A stretch of 23,484 bases of DNA, from positions 1 through 23,484 of the IMG/VR virus record IMGVR_UViG_3300007871_000131, one strand, 5' to 3'. A program made the position numbers and the translations under genes. Below the pieces are notes generated by a model, which had not been told where the DNA came from, searched no databases, and worked only from the letters and a program-made list of their open reading frames with translations. The stretch comes from a virus. The first letter of the stretch is position 1. Each line of letters opens with the position of its first letter. Of this stretch, positions 10,648 through 23,474 are shown one piece after another.

Positions 10648-11172
10648 GTGGAGTCCTCTTGGACAACAAAGGATGAAGTCCTTGCATTAATTAAGGATTT
10701 CTCAGGAGTACGGCTAGATATAGGGTGTGGGGAAAACTGCCAACCTGGATTTATCGGTTTAGACAAGAGGCCGTTGCCAGGAGTCAAGGTGATACATGAC
10801 CTTGAAGTTTTCCCCTACCCTTTTCCAAACGATTGCTGTATTGCTGTAGTCGGCTCACATATAATCGAACATATTAATCCCGCAAATTTCGGGATGATTC
10901 GTCTTATGGATGAGCTGTGGAGGGTGATGAAACCTGGGGGGAAACTGGCTTTTTCTTATCCTTATGCCGGAAGTAGTTATTACTGGCAAGATCCTACTCA
11001 TATCAACGGTTGCAATCAGGCCACATGGCAGTATTTCGATCCAGAGAAACCTCTCTATGCTGTTTACAAACCGAAACCTTGGAAGATAGAGATGAACGCT
11101 TATAGGGAGGGGGGGATGGGAGAAGTGGTGCTTGAGAAGATATTAGCGGAGGCGATAAGTGCCAAGAAGTAA
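10648..11172 (+). CDS. SAM-dependent methyltransferase (class I, type 11-like)
   Basis: This 174-residue protein has the class I Rossmann methyltransferase signature. Motif I LDIGCGEN (about 23-30) binds S-adenosylmethionine, and the acidic end of strand 2 is GFIGLDKRP (about 34-42). An acidic/hydrophobic motif is followed by VVGSHIIEHI (about 67-76), and the post-motif helix and strand are ELWRVMKPGGKLAFSYPY (about 89-106). YWQDPTHING (about 112-121) resembles the DPTH loop of small type 11 enzymes. The acceptor is unknown; sugar methylation is plausible because a glycosyltransferase follows. GTG 10648 has AGAGGGGG just upstream; an ATG two bases earlier is out of frame and soon stops. At 174 residues it is shorter than most members and ends soon after the core. 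It overlaps the next gene by 14 bases. A G7 run at 11109-11115 does not disrupt the frame. Confidence 0.8.
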   Translation: MESSWTTKDEVLALIKDFSGVRLDIGCGENCQPGFIGLDKRPLPGVKVIHDLEVFPYPFPNDCCIAVVGSHIIEHINPANFGMIRLMDELWRVMKPGGKLAFSYPYAGSSYYWQDPTHINGCNQATWQYFDPEKPLYAVYKPKPWKIEMNAYREGGMGEVVLEKILAEAISAKK

Positions 11173-11974
11173 GACTGAGAAAATCGGAGGCTCGAAGATA
11201 ATTGCCTGTAATGAGAAACCCGTAAGGAGACTTCTTATCGGTGTCCCAACGACAGGGAAGATAACAATGGATTGGGCCTTGCATCGTTGGGGCCAGACAA
11301 TCCCCTGTAACTGGTCAAGCATAGATCACTTTGAGTGGATGAATCAGGATTCCCCAATAGACTTTTATGTTGCCAATGCAAGAAACCTGATTGTCCGGTC
11401 AGCGATTGAAATGAACGTTGAGTGGCTTTTGTTTATTGACCACGATGTTCTTTTGCCACCTTTGTTTTTCCAGAAGATGAATCAGTATATGGCTGAAAAG
11501 AAAGTTCCCATAGTCGGTGGGCTTTACTTTACAAAGAGTGTCCCATCGGAACCCCTGACGTATAGAGGACGGGGAAATAGCTTTTATAGCAAGTGGAAGA
11601 TCGGGGACAAGGTTTGGTTGGATGGGATGGGCCTTGGTTGTCACATGATCCACATGAGCATAATGAGGTTAATGTGGGAAGAAAGCGAGGAGTATCTTGT
11701 AGCTGGCCAAAGAGTAAGGAGAGTTTTTGAAGAACCTTTCAAAACTTTTTATGACCCAGAATTAAAAGCTCTGAACATTCAATCTGGCACAGAAGACCTT
11801 GCTTGGTACACAAGAATAATGAATGAGAATGTCTTAGGAAGGTCAGGTTGGAAACAGGTGGCTAAAAGAAAGAACCCGTTTCTCTGCGACACGGCTTTAT
11901 TTTGCTGGCACATTAATGAAGATAGAGTGCGATATCCGATGAGAGGAGAGCAGTTAAAGTTTATAAGAAAATGA
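11159..11974 (+). CDS. GT-A-like glycosyltransferase
   Basis: The 271-residue product looks like a phage-type family 2-like glycosyltransferase. RRLLIGVPTTGKITMDWAL (about 23-41) is the first strand/loop. ARNLIVRSAIEMN (about 74-86) precedes VEWLLFIDHDVLLPP (about 87-101), whose Asp-His-Asp is the metal- and nucleotide-sugar-binding DxD motif. VPIVGGLYFTKSVPSEPLTY (about 116-135) and DGMGLGCHMIHMS (about 155-167) match the acceptor-side loops of these enzymes. The expected reaction is transfer of a sugar from an NDP-sugar to an acceptor that is unknown here; virion proteins or host glycan are both possible. GTG 11159 is supported by GGAGG (11148-11152) 6 bases upstream and overlaps the methyltransferase. 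The end overlaps the next gene by 4 bases (ATGA). There is no membrane segment, so it is cytosolic. Confidence 0.75.
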   Translation: MPRSKTEKIGGSKIIACNEKPVRRLLIGVPTTGKITMDWALHRWGQTIPCNWSSIDHFEWMNQDSPIDFYVANARNLIVRSAIEMNVEWLLFIDHDVLLPPLFFQKMNQYMAEKKVPIVGGLYFTKSVPSEPLTYRGRGNSFYSKWKIGDKVWLDGMGLGCHMIHMSIMRLMWEESEEYLVAGQRVRRVFEEPFKTFYDPELKALNIQSGTEDLAWYTRIMNENVLGRSGWKQVAKRKNPFLCDTALFCWHINEDRVRYPMRGEQLKFIRK

Positions 11975-13386
11975 GCATATATTATGTTGATTATTCTGCT
12001 GGAGTCGATGGTCAAAGTGGTTTGTCTGAGGGGCAAGCCTGGAAGACCATCAACAAAGTCAACACCTCTATGGGGAGCTTTAGTCCAAACGATTTCATCT
12101 TATTCCAGGGTGGGGACACATGGCCGAACAGCGATTCTGATTTAGCTATAACCTGTCAGGGAACCTCTGGAAACCAAATTACCTTTGGCTCGTATGGGTC
12201 TGGGAGGCCACGATTTGCTGAGAATCGCATATCTTGTGGCTCAGGCAATGGATATATCAGCCTTGATAATATCGAAGTGGCTAGTGCTGCCGGTGGGAAT
12301 GGGGTGGATTTTTATAAGTCAGGTGGATGGCATTATGATATTTTCTTAACGAATATGCTTGTCTATGATGCAGCCAATGTGGGGATTTTTTTACAGTCCA
12401 TTGATGGATATCTGATAGATGGCTGTGAATGTTATTCCTGTTACAATGGAAACATCTATGTCTATGGCTCAAACTACCCTATAACCAATGGAACGATAAG
12501 TAATTGTGAATCATATAATGCGACCCAGAATGATGGGATAAGTGTCCATGAGGGAGACAGTCAAGAACCATGTGGCTCTAATCATCTCATCAGAGATTGC
12601 CTGTGTTATGGAAATGCAGAAGAGGGGTTTGATGTAAGCGATGGGTCAGAGGTTACTGTTCAAGATTGTGAGGCTTATGGAGATGCTTATGCTGGGTATA
12701 TCTTCGAGGGGCAGAACAACGTCACGGTCAACAGGTGTATCGCAAGGAATGGGAATCATGGGATGCACATCGGGGGGAGTAACGTCACGATACAGAATTG
12801 TCTGATTTATGATAACGGGTACAACGGAATCATCATGCAGCCCTATACTTCGGTTTCTGGGATTAATCTCTACAATAATACTCTCGTTCATCCAGACTCC
12901 GGTAATAGCGGAACCCTTATAGAGATAGACCCCAATGCCTCAAGTATGAATATCAAGAATAATATCATAATGACCAAACAGGCCACCTATCCCTCAAGGC
13001 TTATTATTTTCTACTCCGGCCTGACTCCGACAAATACCGGAACCGTGATGGATAACAACTGTTACTATCATGGGGGTGGAGACTCTGGAAGGTTTTTTGC
13101 TGATGATAGTGCTTATAGCTTTTCTACATGGCAATCCACGTTTAGCCATGAAGCAAGCTCTATCTTTTCTGACCCGAAGTTTGTTGACCAAGCGAATGAT
13201 AACTATCGACTTCAGGTAGATTCTCCATGTAAAAATACTGGAGCAAATGTTGGGGTAAGCGATGATTTCTACAAGACCGTAAGGCCACAGGGCGGAGGCT
13301 ATGAGATTGGGGCGGTAGAATTTCCCGAATCCGTGACACAGGGAAAGCCGGTTTATGAGGCTTTTAACGTGCAGGTAGAGGAGTAA
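11971..13386 (+). CDS. Parallel beta-helix tail fibre/spike protein
   Basis: This 471-residue protein is typical of right-handed parallel beta-helix proteins of the pectate-lyase-like class. The N-terminus YYVDYSAGVDGQSGLSEGQA with AWKTINKVN (about 4-31) is the usual cap of this group. The middle (about 90-330) has successive rungs with repeated N/G-rich turns and strands such as NVTIQNCLIYDNGYNGI. The C-terminal SPCKNTGANVG and YEIGAVEF segment (about 418-452) is the usual closing motif. Cysteines are frequent in the rungs. It could bind or cut a host polysaccharide; no catalytic residues can be assigned with certainty. It lies right after the glycosyltransferase (ATGA overlap) and has no signal peptide, as expected of a virion protein. 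Confidence 0.75.
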   Translation: MSIYYVDYSAGVDGQSGLSEGQAWKTINKVNTSMGSFSPNDFILFQGGDTWPNSDSDLAITCQGTSGNQITFGSYGSGRPRFAENRISCGSGNGYISLDNIEVASAAGGNGVDFYKSGGWHYDIFLTNMLVYDAANVGIFLQSIDGYLIDGCECYSCYNGNIYVYGSNYPITNGTISNCESYNATQNDGISVHEGDSQEPCGSNHLIRDCLCYGNAEEGFDVSDGSEVTVQDCEAYGDAYAGYIFEGQNNVTVNRCIARNGNHGMHIGGSNVTIQNCLIYDNGYNGIIMQPYTSVSGINLYNNTLVHPDSGNSGTLIEIDPNASSMNIKNNIIMTKQATYPSRLIIFYSGLTPTNTGTVMDNNCYYHGGGDSGRFFADDSAYSFSTWQSTFSHEASSIFSDPKFVDQANDNYRLQVDSPCKNTGANVGVSDDFYKTVRPQGGGYEIGAVEFPESVTQGKPVYEAFNVQVEE

Positions 13387-14479: not shown

Positions 14480-17251
14480 ATGACACAATACGCCTATCCG
14501 ACCTCAGATATTTCTACGGGGAGTTGGACTACAACTCCTCTGTGGGGATACATAGACGAGGTTACTCCGGTTGATGCTGACAATATAAGAAGCTCAAAGA
14601 ATCCTGCTGCCGATGTTTTTGAGTGTAAATTCGGTAGCACCATAACAGACCCAGGCGACCATACTGGCCATGTTTTAAGAATCAGGATAAAAGACGATAA
14701 GAATAACCTAACCGGAACGCTTCAACTTTATCAATCGACAACACTAATCGCAAGTCAGGCTCTTACCGTAACCAGTTCATATGCAGAAGATACTCTGACC
14801 TTAACAGAGGTTCAGGCCGGAAATATAACAGATTACACGGATTTGCGTGTTCGGGTAACGGTTTCTGGTGCTGCTAATAATTACGGATACGTTTCTTGGG
14901 CGAGATTTGAGACACCAGATGTGGGTGCGATTACTCCAGAGATAGACGTAGCAGATAGTGTAGGTGTGGGAGATACAAACGGGGCAATCCTTGTTCCTTT
15001 TCTTGCTGTGTCAATAGCTGCCTCACTTGGCGTTGGGGAAGGAACACCGGCAGCTTATGTTGAGTCTGGGCCTGATATAGCGATAGATGTAAGTGATTCG
15101 GTTATAGTGGGCGTTGTCTGTCCCTCATGTTCCGATTCTGTTACTACTGGAGAAGACCCTGATGTTTATCGTGAGGGGGAACCGGAGTTTGATGTATCAG
15201 AAAGCATAACTCTTAGTGAAACTGTGGTCGTGGCTCTTGCTGACCTTGGGATATATGTCACGGATACCGTTAATGTATCTGAGGCAAATATACGAGTCCA
15301 CCCTGTTTTTCATATATATAAAACTGATAGTGTAGGGGTAGGCGAATACTTAAAGATGCACATTGGCTTTCAGATTGATGTGCAAGATTCTCTCTTATTG
15401 ACCGAGGACGTTAGCTCTGCTCTTGATGATTTAGAGATTTCCGTTGCTGATTCCGTAGGGGTTGCCGAAGACGGGGATGTTGCCTTAGATGCCCTTGGCG
15501 TAAGTGCTTCGGATACGGTAGGGATTACAGAGTCTAGGACGGTAGCTATCCCCTCTGGCCCAGATGTGGCCATTGACCTTGAGGATTCGGTGGGTCTTGG
15601 GGAATCTTCCGTAGCGTTAGAAATTGGGGCAGAACCTCCCAGGGAAATTGATGTATCTGATTCTGTTGGCGTGGGTGAGGCTGGAGATGTTGCCCTTGAC
15701 GACCTTGCCGTAGATGTGTCTGAGTCTATCGGAGTAACAGAGAGCAGGGATGCCGATATTCCCTTAGACATAGACACTTCGGATTCTGTGGGAACAGGGG
15801 AAAGCACAAGCGTTGCTCTTGATGCCCTGGAGATAGACACGGAAGATTCCGTTGGAACGGGAGAGTCGGTAGCCGTTTCTTTAGATGCTCTAGAGATAAG
15901 CACTTCTGAGAGTGTAGGAGTAACAGAAGATAGGACAGTAGAGATTATCGACCTTGAGCCAGGAGACATAGATGTTTCCGATGGGGTGTCCGTAGCTGAG
16001 AGTGGCAGCGTAAGTATTCCCTCCGGTCCAGATGTGGCTATCAATCGGAGTGATAGTGTAGGCGTTGGTGAAAGTCGAACTGTAAGCATCCCCTCTGGGC
16101 CAGATGTAAATATCGGCAGGTCGGAATCAGTCGGTGTAGGTGAGTCTTCATCAGTTGCCATTCCTTCCGGCCCAACGGTAACTATCGGGCTGTCGGATTC
16201 CGTGACTACCGGAGAAAGCGGAGGGGTTTCGATATCAGACCCAGATATCAGCGTTTCCGATGCGGTAAGCGTAGGCGAAACACCTACGGTAGCTGTGGTG
16301 GCTGGCCCAGATGTGAGTGTCAGCGTATCAGATTCAGTCGGTATTGGTGAGTCTGTAACTGTAAGCACACAGGTTATAACCGAGTTAAGCATCAGCGTTT
16401 CTGATAGTGTCATTGTTGGCGTGACTTGTCCAAGTTGCTCTGATTCTGTGACTACCGGAGAGTCCGTAACCGGCTCTGCTTTTTATGTATCCGAAGCCTT
16501 CCGAATAAGCGAAAGCGTTAATGTAGAGATTGAGACAGAGCCATTCGTGGTTTTTGAGTCTGTGTCTGTTGGAGAAAGCGTTACTGTATTTACCGGTGAA
16601 GGGAATATTTCCGTGGCGGATTCTGTGGGAGTCGGAGAGTCGATAGACGTTAGGCAAGAGACTCCTCATATCAGCGTTTCTGATTCTGTCTCTGTTAGTG
16701 AGACTATCGGAGAATCCTTCGAGTCCGTAGAGATAAGCGTATCTGATAGTATTGCTGTAAGCGAGAGCCGCGACCTGCAGCTATCAGAATTACACATAGA
16801 TGTGTCTGATGCAATATCTGTGGGGGAAAACATAGGTTTTCTTTTTGAATCTGAAGGTGAGGTCTTTACAGCAAAACCCAGGATCCGTATATTTAAGGCA
16901 AAGCCTAGAGAAAGAATTTTTGAGGCCAAGCCAAGGAAGAGAATATTTGTAGCAAATAAGTTGGAGGAACCAATGACTACGATAAGGGAGAAAAAACATC
17001 CAGATGAATCATTCCCAAAGGGTTTTCAATATATAGCCCCAGATCTTCTTGCCGGAGAAACCCTTTCCAGCTGTGCTGTGGTAGCAGAGGTGGGACTTAC
17101 GGTAACGACTCCAGGCACGATTAGCGGAGATGAGTGCGTTACTCAGGTGTCCGGTGGGACGTCAGGGGAGGAATATACGATAACGTTTACAATGACTACA
17201 TCGGCAGGGAATACTTATGTTGATAAAATAGTTATGAAGGTGCAATCATGA
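14480..17251 (+). CDS. Large repeat-built virion protein with Ig-like C-terminal domain
   Basis: This 923-residue, strongly acidic protein has three regions. The N-terminal domain (about 1-150) is a beta-sandwich I recognise in phage and environmental surface proteins: QYAYPTSDISTGSWTTTPLW, IDEVTPVDADNIRSS, GHVLRIRIK and ITDYTDLRVRV. Residues about 153-790 are about 28 imperfect repeats of 19-26 residues around a core SDSVGVGES, almost free of Lys and aromatics. Then come three 9-residue repeats FxAKPRxRI (about 796-822) and a C-terminal Ig-like domain (about 832-923: KHPDESFPKGFQY, then SGGTSGEEYTITFTMTTSAG) that resembles small standalone proteins of short-tailed phages. A fibre or stalk role is inferred. 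The domain also has its own Shine-Dalgarno site and start inside the gene. No Shine-Dalgarno site precedes ATG 14480; coupling to the stop 2 bases upstream is likely. The next gene overlaps by 4 bases. Confidence 0.7.
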   Translation: MTQYAYPTSDISTGSWTTTPLWGYIDEVTPVDADNIRSSKNPAADVFECKFGSTITDPGDHTGHVLRIRIKDDKNNLTGTLQLYQSTTLIASQALTVTSSYAEDTLTLTEVQAGNITDYTDLRVRVTVSGAANNYGYVSWARFETPDVGAITPEIDVADSVGVGDTNGAILVPFLAVSIAASLGVGEGTPAAYVESGPDIAIDVSDSVIVGVVCPSCSDSVTTGEDPDVYREGEPEFDVSESITLSETVVVALADLGIYVTDTVNVSEANIRVHPVFHIYKTDSVGVGEYLKMHIGFQIDVQDSLLLTEDVSSALDDLEISVADSVGVAEDGDVALDALGVSASDTVGITESRTVAIPSGPDVAIDLEDSVGLGESSVALEIGAEPPREIDVSDSVGVGEAGDVALDDLAVDVSESIGVTESRDADIPLDIDTSDSVGTGESTSVALDALEIDTEDSVGTGESVAVSLDALEISTSESVGVTEDRTVEIIDLEPGDIDVSDGVSVAESGSVSIPSGPDVAINRSDSVGVGESRTVSIPSGPDVNIGRSESVGVGESSSVAIPSGPTVTIGLSDSVTTGESGGVSISDPDISVSDAVSVGETPTVAVVAGPDVSVSVSDSVGIGESVTVSTQVITELSISVSDSVIVGVTCPSCSDSVTTGESVTGSAFYVSEAFRISESVNVEIETEPFVVFESVSVGESVTVFTGEGNISVADSVGVGESIDVRQETPHISVSDSVSVSETIGESFESVEISVSDSIAVSESRDLQLSELHIDVSDAISVGENIGFLFESEGEVFTAKPRIRIFKAKPRERIFEAKPRKRIFVANKLEEPMTTIREKKHPDESFPKGFQYIAPDLLAGETLSSCAVVAEVGLTVTTPGTISGDECVTQVSGGTSGEEYTITFTMTTSAGNTYVDKIVMKVQS
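14938..16850 (+). repeat. About 28 degenerate coding repeats (SDSVGVGES type)
   Basis: The coded repeat has a core of the form I-x-V-S-D-S-V-G-V-G-E-S followed by x-x-V-x-I and a variable linker (IPSGPD, ALDAL, LEPG). Units vary from 19 to 26 residues. The amino-acid core is held while the codons differ between copies (gattcggtt, gatagtgta, gactcagtc-type variation), so the repeats are old or their protein sequence is under selection. It is not a simple tandem DNA repeat. Confidence 0.8.
16865..16960 (+). repeat. Three tandem 9-residue repeats FxAKPRxRI plus a partial copy
   Basis: Coding repeats of 27 bases at 16865-16891, 16892-16918 and 16919-16945 give FTAKPRIRI, FKAKPRERI and FEAKPRKRI, followed by the incomplete FVANK (16946-16960). 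They form a basic linker between the acidic repeat array and the C-terminal domain. Confidence 0.75.
16963..16967 (+). promoter_or_regulatory. Internal Shine-Dalgarno site
   Basis: GGAGG lies 5 bases before the in-frame ATG at 16973, a better spaced site than that of the full-length gene, whose own ATG at 14480 has none. Confidence 0.6.
16973..17251 (+). CDS. Nested gene candidate: standalone Ig-like tail protein
   Basis: The in-frame ATG at 16973, behind GGAGG, would give a 92-residue protein identical to the C-terminus of the 923-residue product. It begins MTTIREKKHPDESFPKG and contains YIAPDLLAGETLSSCAVV, a Thr-rich strand, SGGTSGEEYTITFTMT, then TYVDKIVMKV. From memory, many short-tailed phages encode a separate protein of roughly this length and pattern (Lys-rich start, then LAGDTIASSTWTV- and LSGGTAGTEYTV-like segments) next to the tail adaptor gene, exactly where this one lies. 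Two readings fit: two proteins are made from one gene, or a formerly separate gene was fused to the repeat gene and its ribosome site remains as a relic. Confidence 0.5.
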   Translation: MTTIREKKHPDESFPKGFQYIAPDLLAGETLSSCAVVAEVGLTVTTPGTISGDECVTQVSGGTSGEEYTITFTMTTSAGNTYVDKIVMKVQS

Positions 17252-17954: not shown

Positions 17955-20630
17955 ATGATTAAAACTAAGGAAACAAAAACGATCCCACTCCTTGTTGGCG
18001 GTGGACTTGATGAGTCCTCTCCGGTCAATGATCTTGCTTATGAAGACTGTATAGAGATGGAGAATTGGAGAATAAGCAAAGATGGGAAGAGGTGGGAAAA
18101 AAGGCTCGGTTCTACTGAAGTCCTTAATCTTGGAGCTGTAGAGGATATCTATCACTACTCGACTTATTTTAATGGTAGCGATGAGTTTTGTGAGTTAGGG
18201 ATAACGGAGACAAGGATAATGCGGAGCATAAACTATGCAGCATGGTCAACGATTTATTCTTGGCCAGCCAACATTTATCATCCTATCAGACCTCTTAGCA
18301 TCAATGGAAAACAGTATATTATTCATGACGATTACAGCCGTGTCATTGAGGCAGATGATAGCGTATATCAGATAGGGATAGATAAGCCTGATCAGATGTT
18401 GGGGCTTTTGACTGATACAGACACGAATTTATTCGCTGATGATTGCTCTAGCCTGTCTGGGTGGGCAGATAATGATGCCGGAACGGGGGTAAGTTCCCAA
18501 GTTACCTATGATAGCAAGAGTTGTTTCAAGTTTGCCTCTGATGGTGGTGGTTATTCTGGGGCTTATAGAACGAAAGATCAGGGTTCAATCCCAAGCATTT
18601 ATACCCTTGAGTTTGAGATGCGGATTAATTCTGTTGGTGGCGTAGATGATTCCGGAGAAAATAATTTTCATATCATGGTCGGCAATGAGGATGGACATGA
18701 GTTTAGTGTTTATTTCTCTGATGAGGGAGATTCGTCTGGAGATCCAGCAATGTCGATTGCGACTTCTGCCTTTCCTCTTTATGTGACTAACGTTACAGCC
18801 GATACAGGTGGGTGGAATGTTTGGAAGTTTTGCGTGGACACAACCATCACGGATGAGGCGTGGGTGGATGTTTGGAAAGATGGTGATTTTCAGGGAAGGT
18901 TTAGCTGTACGGATACTACTCTTGCAGGAACAGATGGACAAATTGATCTTCAAGGATGGGGAGATTCGGTTGCTGGGGAAATGTATCTAAATTATATTCA
19001 ACTTGATTATTGGGACGATCAAGACAATGCGACTTTGAGGAGTTACGGAACTACATTTGTCAAGTCTGGCAATTTTGGAAATGAAAGCAATCCTCAGAAA
19101 TCTTATGTTGGATCAACTTTTTATGCGAACCTCTCCGGCTTAGATGATTTGACAATAGGTGGGAATTATTCTGGTACAGGGTCGAGGAGTGTTGTTGTAG
19201 AAATTGATGGTACTGGTGCGAGGGATACGATCAAGGTTTCTTATGATGGTGGGATGAATTGGGATTTAGAGTCTTATCCTATCTCAACCTCTGTGAGTAT
19301 AAATTATGGGCTTACCCTCACGTTTGGGGATATAACTGGCCATACCCTTGGAGGAAGGTGGATGGCTCCTTGTAGTCGGATGGGGGTTAGGAAGGCCGAA
19401 GGGCAGAAAGTATCGGTATATAATATCCCGACCTCTTCTGATGCACAGGTTGATCAGAGAAAGTTATATCGATCGGTTTCCGAAGGTGCGTCCTTTTACT
19501 GGCTAATGACCATAGATAACAATACTAACACTTATGTTGTGGATAACAATAAAGACTTGGCTCTTGGTTCGCTTGTCGAAGAAGATCATGATGTGTGTCC
19601 TCACGGGAAATTCTCGGTATGGTGTGACGATAGGTTGTGGGTGGCGGATCATAGCGGAAAGGTTGTCTATTATTCAGAAACAGGAAATCCAGAGGCTTTT
19701 GATATAAACAGAAGATACGTTACGGTCCAAAAGGGAAATTCCGGTGACGAGATAACTCAGATGGTTGTATTCCGTGATTCTATATACATATTTACGGAAC
19801 TTTCTGTGTTTATAATAATTAAACAACCAGACGGGGGATATGGAAGATATCAGCTCGACACGGACTTTGGGTGTTACTATCCATGGAGCATGATAGAGGC
19901 TAATGGATATCTTTACTTTCTCTCGGATAGAGGGTGGGAGAAGTTTGACGGGATTAATCAGACAGACCCGATATTTTCTATCCCATTAAAAAGGACAATA
20001 GAATCCCTTGATCTGACAGATGAATACGACCAAGATGAACCGTGTAGCGGTCACAACAGGAAGTTTAATGAGGTTTGGTGTTCTATCCCAAACTCTGGAA
20101 CTGGCCGTACAATTATGATACACAACTATCTGAGAAATAAGTTTTTCTTATTTACTTTTCCAAAGATCACCTCATCTCTTATGGAAGCCAGATACGAGAA
20201 TGGGGAGCTTATTTTCTATCGTGGGACTAGAGATGGATATTTGTATAAGCAGGATCTAGGATATCAGGATGGGGCTACAGATATAACTTGCAGATTGAGA
20301 AAGGGGTGGATCAAATATCCTGAGCATGGATTATCAAGAAGAATGAATATAGATTATGAGATCCCAAACGGGAAAAAGCTGACGGTTAATGTTTATACCG
20401 ACTATCATGTAAATCCGGAGAAATCAAAAAAACTTACGGGCGTAGCCATTGATTCAGAAGATATCGACTTGAGACGTCCTGTTGATGATATAATGGAACT
20501 TGGAGGAAGGGGGAAGGTGTTCAATGTGGAACTTATAAACGATGAAAACCTTGGTGGTGACTTGAAGATAAATGCCCTCAGTTTTACAAGGCAACCTACT
20601 GGAATAAAGGGAAAAACACATGGGAATTAA
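17955..20630 (+). CDS. Tail nozzle protein (gp12-like) with inserted beta domains
   Basis: The 891-residue protein follows the adaptor and matches the tail tube B/nozzle class: N-terminal LLVGGGLDESSPVND (about 12-26) and ENWRISKDGKRWEKRLGS (about 36-53), and propeller-like strands later, including DDRLWVADHSGKVVYYSETG, GDEITQMVVFRDSIYIFTEL and NGYLYFLSDRGWEKFDGI. Two extra segments interrupt the core. The first, about 157-353, begins LFADDCSSLSGW and looks like a concanavalin-type jelly roll. The second, about 365-475, contains VVVEIDGTGARDTIKVSYDG and TFGDITGHTLGGRW, a domain pattern seen in other phage proteins. The nozzle closes the tail and opens at DNA ejection; the inserts may face the host. 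ATG 17955 is 2 bases after the upstream stop; TTG 17943 is the alternative. It overlaps the next gene by 11 bases. Confidence 0.72.
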   Translation: MIKTKETKTIPLLVGGGLDESSPVNDLAYEDCIEMENWRISKDGKRWEKRLGSTEVLNLGAVEDIYHYSTYFNGSDEFCELGITETRIMRSINYAAWSTIYSWPANIYHPIRPLSINGKQYIIHDDYSRVIEADDSVYQIGIDKPDQMLGLLTDTDTNLFADDCSSLSGWADNDAGTGVSSQVTYDSKSCFKFASDGGGYSGAYRTKDQGSIPSIYTLEFEMRINSVGGVDDSGENNFHIMVGNEDGHEFSVYFSDEGDSSGDPAMSIATSAFPLYVTNVTADTGGWNVWKFCVDTTITDEAWVDVWKDGDFQGRFSCTDTTLAGTDGQIDLQGWGDSVAGEMYLNYIQLDYWDDQDNATLRSYGTTFVKSGNFGNESNPQKSYVGSTFYANLSGLDDLTIGGNYSGTGSRSVVVEIDGTGARDTIKVSYDGGMNWDLESYPISTSVSINYGLTLTFGDITGHTLGGRWMAPCSRMGVRKAEGQKVSVYNIPTSSDAQVDQRKLYRSVSEGASFYWLMTIDNNTNTYVVDNNKDLALGSLVEEDHDVCPHGKFSVWCDDRLWVADHSGKVVYYSETGNPEAFDINRRYVTVQKGNSGDEITQMVVFRDSIYIFTELSVFIIIKQPDGGYGRYQLDTDFGCYYPWSMIEANGYLYFLSDRGWEKFDGINQTDPIFSIPLKRTIESLDLTDEYDQDEPCSGHNRKFNEVWCSIPNSGTGRTIMIHNYLRNKFFLFTFPKITSSLMEARYENGELIFYRGTRDGYLYKQDLGYQDGATDITCRLRKGWIKYPEHGLSRRMNIDYEIPNGKKLTVNVYTDYHVNPEKSKKLTGVAIDSEDIDLRRPVDDIMELGGRGKVFNVELINDENLGGDLKINALSFTRQPTGIKGKTHGN

Positions 20631-22149
20631 TGATCTGATAGGAGACAAGGACAGGATCAAGCATCTCAAGATGTTCGGGATCCATGGCCTTGCAAGTCTG
20701 TCTGATGTTAATGCTATTTCCATGCGGAGTATGTCGTATAAAGATACCCGTGCCTATACCTCAGTCGAGAGGGCGTTGATAGAGAACGAAGATACGGAGA
20801 CGGCACTTCTTGTTTCTACGGAAAATAAACTGGATAGAGATTTAACTATTGTTGATAATATTCGCCTCCGTATAGAGAACGGGGGGATGCTGAACATACC
20901 AGAGGGTGCGACTCTAAAGATAAACGGTTCTCTTGATGCTGACCCGTATCAGGTTTTTGGTGGTGGAAAGGACGTTGATTTCGGTGGTTCATCTCGGATA
21001 CCTGTGGTCTATCCTCAATGGTTCGGGGCGACAGGAAAGGGATTGATAGATGATAGTCGTGCGATACAGAAGGCCATCGATTCATTAACCTCTGGTGGAA
21101 TAGTTGTGTTTCCCCCTGGCCAGTATTTGGTTCTTATCCCATTGGAACTCCGGAATAACGTTGTGTTACAGGGAACAGAAGGTGGGAGTGTCTTGACTTC
21201 TACGGGTACAAGGGGCTTGGTTCATGGCAATGGTGTTACCGGAGCTGGACTCGAACACCTCAAGCTGACCGGTGGAAATGATGGGGTGGTGTTTTTTAAT
21301 TTCTCTGATAGGTGTTTTGTTAACTGTTGCTGGCTCTATAATAATGCCAATAATGGCGTCCTGATAAACTCATCGGATAACTGTAAGGTAACTTTCTGCA
21401 CTATAGAGGATGCTGGGAAGAATGGGGTCTATCTTTATAATGGCACAACTAACAGTCGAGTCGAGGGGTGTAATATATTGTCTCCTGTAAATAAAGGGAT
21501 AAGCATATTTAACGGGAGTACCCATAACTTTGCGGTGGCAAATTACCTCTGGAATGTTGGTGAGGCTGGAATTTTTATCAATGATTCAACCGATACCACT
21601 CATTCAAATTACAATGAGATAATAGCAAATATCGTATATAGAAGCGGAGTGAGTGCTACCTCCGGTGGAAACGGGATAGAGGCTGGCCTAGAGCAGCTTG
21701 GGGCAAACATCATGGGAAACCTTATTGTTCAAGCAGGATATGGAAGGGCTGGGTTGTCTCTGCCTTCTCTGTATGGCGTTTCCATTCATGGAACCGATGT
21801 TAGCGTTATCGGAAACAAGGCCGTGAGTTCTCTCTATCATGGATTTTATTTTTATGAAGCATCTGACTGTACCTGTATAGGAAACACATCGCTAAACAGT
21901 TCCCAGGATAGCGTTGGGAGTTATGACGGAATCCGAGTACACGGAACGGTCACGAATCCAAGCAACGACAACACATTCATAGGGAATCGTTGTAGAGATA
22001 AGCAAGGTACAAAGACTCAAGACTATGGTATCCGAGAGGCAGGTACATCTGACTATAATCTTTTTATTGCAAATAGCCTGAGAGGAAATATCTCAGGTGG
22101 TATTACAACAGTCGGGGTTGGCACGATTGCTGACCATAACATGAGCTAG
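20620..22149 (+). CDS. Pectate-lyase-type tailspike
   Basis: This 509-residue protein has the classical sequence of phage tailspikes with a right-handed beta-helix. Residues about 45-125 form an N-terminal region with LRIENGGMLNIPEGATLKIN and DADPYQVFGGGKDVDFG. YPQWFGATGKGLIDDSRAIQ (about 131-150) with KAIDSLTSGGIVVFPPGQYL (about 151-170) is the Pectate_lyase_3 entry motif. Many N/G-turn rungs follow (such as NNGVLINSSDNCKVTFCTIE). Such proteins bind and often depolymerise host surface polysaccharides. Acidic candidates for catalysis cannot be picked safely from sequence. ATG 20620 overlaps the nozzle gene by 11 bases, with AAGGG upstream. The N-terminal about 40 residues may attach it to the tail. 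Confident in fold; substrate unknown. Confidence 0.82.
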   Translation: MGINDLIGDKDRIKHLKMFGIHGLASLSDVNAISMRSMSYKDTRAYTSVERALIENEDTETALLVSTENKLDRDLTIVDNIRLRIENGGMLNIPEGATLKINGSLDADPYQVFGGGKDVDFGGSSRIPVVYPQWFGATGKGLIDDSRAIQKAIDSLTSGGIVVFPPGQYLVLIPLELRNNVVLQGTEGGSVLTSTGTRGLVHGNGVTGAGLEHLKLTGGNDGVVFFNFSDRCFVNCCWLYNNANNGVLINSSDNCKVTFCTIEDAGKNGVYLYNGTTNSRVEGCNILSPVNKGISIFNGSTHNFAVANYLWNVGEAGIFINDSTDTTHSNYNEIIANIVYRSGVSATSGGNGIEAGLEQLGANIMGNLIVQAGYGRAGLSLPSLYGVSIHGTDVSVIGNKAVSSLYHGFYFYEASDCTCIGNTSLNSSQDSVGSYDGIRVHGTVTNPSNDNTFIGNRCRDKQGTKTQDYGIREAGTSDYNLFIANSLRGNISGGITTVGVGTIADHNMS

Positions 22150-22157
22150 GAGATAAC

Positions 22158-23474
22158 ATGAGTATGAAATGGTGGTTCGGTAAAAATTCTTGGTGGTGTA
22201 AATTCTGGTCGTGGTTTCGATTGCAGAGATTCTGCTACTCGCCTCCCCCAACACCAGAGCCTCCTTCGCCACCAGACCCTCCAATCCCCCCTATTCCCGA
22301 GCCACCATCCCCTACTCCTCCGATCCCTCCGACTCCTCCACCCTTGAAGAAGATCCCGAAAGAGAAGACCTATAAAGAACAGAGAAAGATAATGGCCCCA
22401 TTTCTTATCCCAACGATGCTGTTCAATAAGCAGATCACAGATGTATCTGTTGATAACTTTGCCAGAAAGTTTGCTGACGAAGAGTACGGCAACTGTCTGA
22501 GGTTTTTCTCGTATGGAATATGGGAGAATTGCTGGAAGAACAAACTTCATCTTCCATTTTTCCAGACCGGAGATTGGAAGTTCACTACCGAATTGTGGAG
22601 TGAAGACTATTGGGAAGTGCTTGTGCGAAGGCTCGACTCTTTCATCAAGAGGGATATTACCGTGATCCTGACGATGATAGACAACTGCTCTCTCCATGAG
22701 AGGAGAAATAGTCATTGGGCTTTACATCCCATGAATGGAAATAATAATATAAATGGGACAAGCGTTTGGATGCCTAGCAATTATCACTATTATGAAGACG
22801 AGTGGCATGATGTTGATTATGTGAGGGCAGCTAGAAAGAAAAGGAAGATGGCTGGCTTGAAGGACGATCCTACAGATGATGAGATTAACAAATGGATCAA
22901 GGCTTTGGATAAGACAGGCGTTGAGAATGAGGTCTTTTACAGGAATCTCGTCCAGAGAGTCGAGACTCAGTTTGGGCCGACAGTTATTTGGGAGGCCGTC
23001 AACGAGGGTCCGGCCGGTAATGGATGGCACAATATAATGGCAGGAATATTAAAAGAATTTAATGTTCCTAAATGGAGAAGATTGACGAGTATCAACCTTG
23101 ATCCGAGGTTCGATGATTTCTGGAAGAAACAGATATACAAGAAATTTATGTATAGTATGCACAAGATAAAAGATATAGATAGTTACGAGGAAAGGAAAGA
23201 GCTTATTCCTTTGGCTGCCAGAAAGACTTGGATGGCAAGTCAAGATGGGTTTCCCCCAACCAAGACTACAAAAGAAACGGAAGACTTGGTTCTTCACATT
23301 TTAGAAGATGGGTGCATGGGTTTCGAGCAGAATTTGAGGCCGATATTCGAGAAGCGTGGCGATATCTGGAAAAACGTATGCTGCAATGAGGATTGGTCGC
23401 TGACTTCTTTATGTTTTAACTATGCCAGAGCTATAAGAAATGCCTGGGAGAAATGGATGGAGGAAAATGATTGA
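22158..23474 (+). CDS. TIM-barrel glycoside-hydrolase-like protein with Pro-rich linker
   Basis: This 438-residue protein has three parts. Residues 1-28 are Trp/Phe-rich (KWWFGKNSWWCKFWSWF) and could anchor it to the virion or a membrane. Residues about 29-62 are almost only Pro with Ser, Thr, Glu and Ile, a rigid linker. Residues about 78-435 look like a clan-A (GH5-like) barrel: MAPFLIPTMLFN, LRFFSYGIWENCWKN, ITVILTMIDNCS, then GPTVIWEAVNEGPAGNGWHN (about 273-292). Its Asn-Glu (Glu about 283) is the usual acid/base pair of the clan. Glu about 390 in MGFEQNLRP is a candidate nucleophile. A tail-borne or lysis-associated glycanase is inferred. ATG 22158 has AGGAGA 4 bases upstream; ATG 22164 is equally possible. 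The substrate is unknown. Confidence 0.65.
   Translation: MSMKWWFGKNSWWCKFWSWFRLQRFCYSPPPTPEPPSPPDPPIPPIPEPPSPTPPIPPTPPPLKKIPKEKTYKEQRKIMAPFLIPTMLFNKQITDVSVDNFARKFADEEYGNCLRFFSYGIWENCWKNKLHLPFFQTGDWKFTTELWSEDYWEVLVRRLDSFIKRDITVILTMIDNCSLHERRNSHWALHPMNGNNNINGTSVWMPSNYHYYEDEWHDVDYVRAARKKRKMAGLKDDPTDDEINKWIKALDKTGVENEVFYRNLVQRVETQFGPTVIWEAVNEGPAGNGWHNIMAGILKEFNVPKWRRLTSINLDPRFDDFWKKQIYKKFMYSMHKIKDIDSYEERKELIPLAARKTWMASQDGFPPTKTTKETEDLVLHILEDGCMGFEQNLRPIFEKRGDIWKNVCCNEDWSLTSLCFNYARAIRNAWEKWMEEND

Follow-up and report, generated by a model that had tools for sequence, protein, structure and literature searches.

What does a phage gain from a protein in which a glycosidase-like barrel is joined through a polyproline stalk to a tryptophan-rich tip, and where would such a protein act? 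The question is raised by the last complete open reading frame of the window, by which we mean the whole stretch of DNA analysed, a complete virus record of 23,484 bases that reads as a fragment of a short-tailed phage, with terminase, portal, head protein, an SU10-type adaptor, a Gp77-like fibre adaptor and a beta-helix spike. The encoded protein, here termed P0001, starts at an ATG five bases from its ribosome-binding site, and the locus is laid out as follows:

20620 to 22149, plus strand: beta-helix tailspike gene (domain match), directly upstream of P0001 and given as context, not as part of it
22148 to 22152, plus strand: AGGAG ribosome-binding site, overlapping the tailspike stop codon (sequence)
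22158 to 23474, plus strand: GH5-like tethered protein P0001, 438 amino acids (open reading frame call and homology)
22158 to 22241, plus strand: cationic Trp/Phe-rich tip, residues 1-28 (composition and interface score)
22242 to 22346, plus strand: polyproline stalk, residues 29-63, with 23 Pro in 35 residues (composition)
22395 to 23471, plus strand: predicted GH5-like (beta/alpha)8 barrel, about residues 80-438 (homology, model of the relative L029 and fold matches)

The layout proposed in the initial annotation, namely 28 Trp/Phe-rich residues, a proline-rich stalk and a barrel, is real, the barrel by way of homology and the L029 model described below. The tip contains six Trp and four Phe and has a net charge of +5; among 148 N-termini, that of P0001 alone reaches a Trp plus Phe count of at least 9. 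Its best membrane-interface score is -11.2 kcal/mol over 19 residues and has no equal among 167 background N-termini from 12 loci, a background from which a crude text filter had first removed 13 open reading frames (11 family members and two unrelated ones of the window). The score is extreme in P0001 and ordinary in the relatives L029 and L042. The proline content of the stalk compares with 16 Pro in the richest background open reading frame. By eye, P0001 shows no continuous hydrophobic (Sec-type) signal, nor does it have the signal peptide with lipobox of a secreted lipoprotein. Scanning with the tip pattern WWxGKNxWW returned 21 loci, and no relative of the tip was among their products: 15 have one short repeated peptide, two have one unrelated open frame, and four (L057, L059, L061 and L071) have short frames that, where read, are in a different phase from a longer frame. 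Separately, a phage carrying another member of the family (L078) encodes at 19334-19705 a 123-residue Trp- and Pro-rich protein starting MSLWWNPNNPPPPSGW; the GH5-like protein of that phage is without such a tip.

P0001 has no family match in Pfam and nothing useful in PHROGs (best 0.15), direct searches and searches with its own peptides of phages, plasmids, viral_contigs and genome_contigs gave no useful match, and its neighbouring genes, used as queries, found no kin contigs in viral_contigs. Relatives came from motif-guided scans. The pattern W-E-A-V-N-E-G hit two loci only, both encoding one unrelated protein family, which we take to be of the T4 neck type. The strand-4 motif V-I-W-E-x-h-N-E found 53 viral loci, and 11 of these 53 open reading frames (some identical) passed the phmmer inclusion threshold, the strongest match covering residues 108-204, that is, outside the search motif. 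Alignment-guided scans gave 12 viral loci and one in a 98-kb contig of a Candidatus Aminicenantes MAG, and the loop motif N-G-x-N-N-I-N-G gave 39 loci with one new member (L114). When 396 genomes of the Candidatus Aminicenantes phylum were searched, eight had matches at E<=0.001, including G294, which carries two full members (L106 and L107) in two prophages; those of the remaining weak matches that were read resemble cellular GH5-like or DUF6298-like proteins. Among 142 genomes of the class to which G294 belongs, G294 and the Aminicenantes genome alone gave matches, and two hosts of relatives, one being the Candidatus Aminicenantes MAG, belong to one bacterial class. The family totals 14 distinct open reading frames at E<=1e-50, made up of P0001, 11 relatives, all of them in uncultivated phages and prophages, and a broken copy (L016) lying in two frames of 153 and 280 amino acids. 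One member, L031, has an internal gap and is missing the stretch between strands 5 and 7, including the conserved His. No description of the family was found in the open-licence literature.

These relatives give access to the fold. P0001 is linked to L029 by BLASTP (38% identity over 101 amino acids, E 2e-14, a single pair) and to a family profile built without it by hhalign (probability 97.3, residues 98-365); its lone-sequence model was unusable (pLDDT 39.1), and the PF00150 test gave no match. PF00150 appears at E<=1 in six of the seven members of alignment A1, with L029 above the cut-off (E 4e-7), and below the cut-off in L083; L106, L107 and L114 have no match at 0.05. Modelled from a 10-row alignment that includes P0001, the L029 core has eight strands (pLDDT 84.4, pTM 0.88), with N-E following strand 4 and D-G following strand 7. 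Foldseek returned 217 PDB matches at E<=0.001 with GH5 enzymes leading, and VIA-align placed GH5 mannanases first (1rh9, Z 21.4, rmsd 3.3, 289 aligned), followed by GH164 (Z 18.6-18.8) and GH140 (Z 18.7), in lists from which the absence of a family does not exclude it; the viral structure library yielded low TM-score matches only. The structure search suggested in the initial annotation, run with this model of a relative, bears out its reading of a clan GH-A (beta/alpha)8 fold, and homology and model together support a GH5-like barrel in P0001. A phmmer match to PLC-gamma (E 0.0013) spans residues 94-186 only, PI-PLC X is not listed for the family profiles, and we read the match as chance or remote TIM-barrel likeness. 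The view that P0001 is not a standard endolysin or tailspike agrees with Pfam, which detects in it neither a peptidoglycan hydrolase domain nor the right-handed beta-helix domain present in the neighbouring protein.

If the barrel is of this type, is it still an enzyme? In clan GH-A, an Asn-Glu pair at the end of strand 4 supplies the acid/base and a Glu at the end of strand 7 is the nucleophile. The positions of P0001 that bear on this rule, all taken from the alignment, are:

22500 to 22502, plus strand: R115, strand 2, invariant
23001 to 23006, plus strand: N282-E283 after strand 4, corresponding to the clan GH-A acid/base pair
23160 to 23162, plus strand: H335, strand 6, found in all 12 sequences that cover it
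23241 to 23249, plus strand: Q362-D363-G364, strand 7 (end), no Glu, invariant Asp-Gly
23325 to 23327, plus strand: E390, the earlier candidate second Glu, not conserved

The active-site alignment has 14 rows, 13 of which cover strands 4 and 7, and N282, E283, D363 and G364 are kept in all 13. In an alignment of 10 rows whose identity to P0001 is about 22%, the same four residues together with R115 and H335 are among 20 invariant columns. The canonical strand-7 Glu occurs in none of the 13 sequences covering that strand, where the motif is [S/A/Q/G]-Asp-Gly, the residue before Asp being S in seven, A in four, Q in one and G in one. The Asn-Glu noticed earlier, with Glu near 283, is therefore N282-E283 at the end of strand 4. 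The doubt then expressed about a second Glu near 390 was well placed, and E390 itself is rejected as the catalytic partner: it lies on strand 8, the family has E (five), D (one), I (five) or L (two) at its position, and the invariant acid of strand 7 is D363. As to how strand 7 lines up with that of cellular GH5-like proteins, the hhalign alignments end short of it and MAFFT left it unaligned; an ungapped pairing made by eye only, KTWMASQDGF of P0001 with KIAGFDESGF of L097, sets Q362 at the Glu position, and D363 would stand at or beside the position of the lost Glu.

Loss of the strand-7 Glu throughout the family speaks for a dead barrel that serves as a lectin, for example as a surface protein of the lysogen that masks or binds a glycan or blocks superinfection, and so does the moron-type position of the signal-bearing prophage copies, which are followed by other signal-like genes. 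Conservation of the Asn, Glu, Asp and Gly in every sequence argues against a dead barrel, and invariance of E283, H335, R115 and the strand-7 Asp at such low identity is unexpected for a dead site; we regard the lectin as unlikely. Since the other residues of the centre are invariant at that identity, we lean towards a working, altered enzyme: the barrel probably retains enzymatic activity through a non-canonical site, and because the Glu is lost and an Asp is invariant there or beside it, E283 and D363, rather than the usual two Glu, are the predicted catalytic pair.

How far does this set P0001 apart from known systems? Like GH5 (PF00150; mannanases PDB 1rh9 and 8gf3), the family combines a (beta/alpha)8 barrel with the strand-4 N-E, the strand-2 Arg and the strand-6 His; in contrast to GH5, it is without the strand-7 Glu. 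With that Glu absent and no PF00150 match for P0001, strict GH5 membership fails, and P0001 looks like a GH5-derived glycan-active protein. A GH5 fold in a phage is in itself unsurprising, given the parts we compared of the descriptions of a permafrost virus-encoded GH5 endomannanase (PMC6786970) and a rumen viral GH5 (PMC10465536), both reported as active auxiliary enzymes and, like P0001, GH5-type barrels from uncultivated phages; in these parts, unlike what we see in P0001, neither a tether nor an altered site is described. Such precedents (PMC6786970, PMC10465536), and the GH5 mannanases as nearest folds, would suit an ordinary auxiliary enzyme that degrades environmental polysaccharide for the host. 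The missing canonical Glu, the lack of a secretion signal in P0001 and the location of the genes in late structural blocks all count against this, and we consider it very improbable. The fold neighbours further include the Apiosidase-like and DUF6298 proteins (PF13204 and PF19815; PDB 8t9w, GH140, at the Z score given above); on this side of the comparison, L096, L097, L101 and L128 have an NN-I/V-N loop after strand 3 in common with the P0001 family. An Asp near strand 7 is also found in L128, where it is followed by His, whereas Gly follows it in the P0001 family, and no family member examined matched the models of these groups, which are absent from the listed matches of the seven A1 members and of L083, L106, L107 and L114. 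L128 itself (2-2905), encoded on a viral contig of 60 kb, is a 968-residue DUF6298/cellulase-like protein in which Asp-Thr-Asp-His occurs near strand 7. It is the altered site combined with swapped tethers that appears to be the new part.

The tethers differ from member to member. L042, L022, L015, L045, L023 and L083 begin with a cationic hydrophobic stretch and L029 has a cationic start; L114 has neither a cationic stretch nor a signal. A net charge of at least +5 is found in 8 of 11 listed family N-termini versus 11 of 167 in the background, a count in which the starts of L029, L042, L022 and L107 were placed by the analyst at an internal Met and the members are related (4 of 6 lineages by the analyst's grouping). 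Each of the two prophage proteins, L106 and L107, opens with a hydrophobic signal whose last residue is Cys, and PGPxPP comes next; the lipobox pattern fits L107, not L106. By alignment, a Cys-containing linker segment is common to L106 (9361-10608), L107 (9188-10510) and L083 (6294-7694). For L106, the segment has a match in a class A PBP of the host itself (a transglycosylase-transpeptidase; E 2.7e-6, 41%), and among 72,556 plasmid records it has 10 matches at E<=1, seven annotated as penicillin-binding proteins and three unannotated there; a family search with it gave PBP_1c only (0.069), and the segments of L083 and L107 gave no family match. Within class A PBPs, as delimited by their motifs, the Cys segment corresponding to the L106 linker lies between the transpeptidase domain and BiPBP_C, and L107 and L083 are alike by alignment. 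P0001 is without this segment, and polyproline occupies its place. A tree places P0001 together with L106 and L107 (bootstrap 99), but the branches measure about 1.8 and the grouping may reflect long-branch attraction. Judged from these sequences, the family has a variable front end, of which the Trp tip is one form, and the front ends suggest, for the most part, the membrane or the cell wall.

Gene order adds to this. In L084 and L089 the next gene has a weak M15 peptidase match (1e-3 in L084, below the cut-off) and is followed by a gene with a hydrophobic start; in L087 and L083 the GH5-like gene comes after the last tail-side gene, in L106 and L107 at the end of the prophage tail module, and in L078 among head-to-tail (connector) genes, with a clear, separate M15 peptidase gene (7e-18) 6.7 kb further on. 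These positions mark the relatives as late genes, and any peptidase seen near them is encoded separately. The L106 gene is followed, at 10715-12610, by three genes whose products begin with hydrophobic, signal-like stretches, one product having a Big_2 domain; the three are possibly a lipoprotein cassette of the lysogen.

The initial annotation had left two placements side by side, attachment to the virion and retention at the membrane during lysis. As a virion component, P0001 would dock on the tail with its Trp tip and extend the barrel on the stalk to bind or cut surface glycan, as a second receptor-binding or depolymerising spike; its gene follows directly on the tailspike gene with overlapping signals, and the relatives in L087, L083, L106 and L107 come after tail genes. 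Yet the export-type signals of L106 and L107 are ill-suited to assembly in the cytoplasm, the L078 gene sits among connector genes, and no tail-anchor domain was found in the first 76 residues of P0001, and this placement seems rather doubtful to us. The Sec- or lipoprotein-like signals of L106 and L107, the cationic starts of most others and the linker segment shared with the host PBP lean towards the envelope. Our preferred, still tentative, reading makes P0001 a late phage protein by which a GH5-like barrel that binds and probably cleaves glycan is retained at the envelope of the host cell. By calculation, the cationic Trp/Phe tip would partition into the membrane interface; we infer that the newly made tip would attach to the inner membrane and hold the barrel close to wall or surface glycan while the envelope is being opened by lysis; by loosening this glycan, the barrel may help progeny to escape. 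For the two related prophages, the part of the tip would fall to an anchor of signal- or lipoprotein-like type.

A wider claim, which we put forward as speculative, is that of a clan GH-A-fold family of phage glycosidases that pair the strand-4 Glu with an Asp newly placed at, or adjacent to, the position of the lost Glu and are aimed at the wall by exchangeable front ends: a Trp-rich interface helix with polyproline stalk, a cationic helix, a lipoprotein-like signal or a segment shared with a host PBP. Should E283 and D363 work as a pair, this small family, which lends itself to testing, would break the recognition rule of clan GH-A; should the barrel be inactive, it would be a phage glycan receptor built on a cellulase fold. 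In either case, the exchange of front ends would illustrate how a glycan-active domain is brought to the envelope of uncultivated hosts by phages, and the stretch that is also found in a host PBP gives a hint of its site of action.

Elsewhere in the window, methyltransferase-like and Anp1-like (glycosyltransferase) genes lie inside the structural block at 10648-11974 (weak Pfam matches), and a further right-handed beta-helix protein, in addition to the tailspike, is encoded at 11971-13386. The 923-residue protein encoded at 14480-17251 consists mostly of repeated S-D-S-V-G-V-G-E-S-type units and carries the Gp77 fibre-adaptor domain at its C-terminus.
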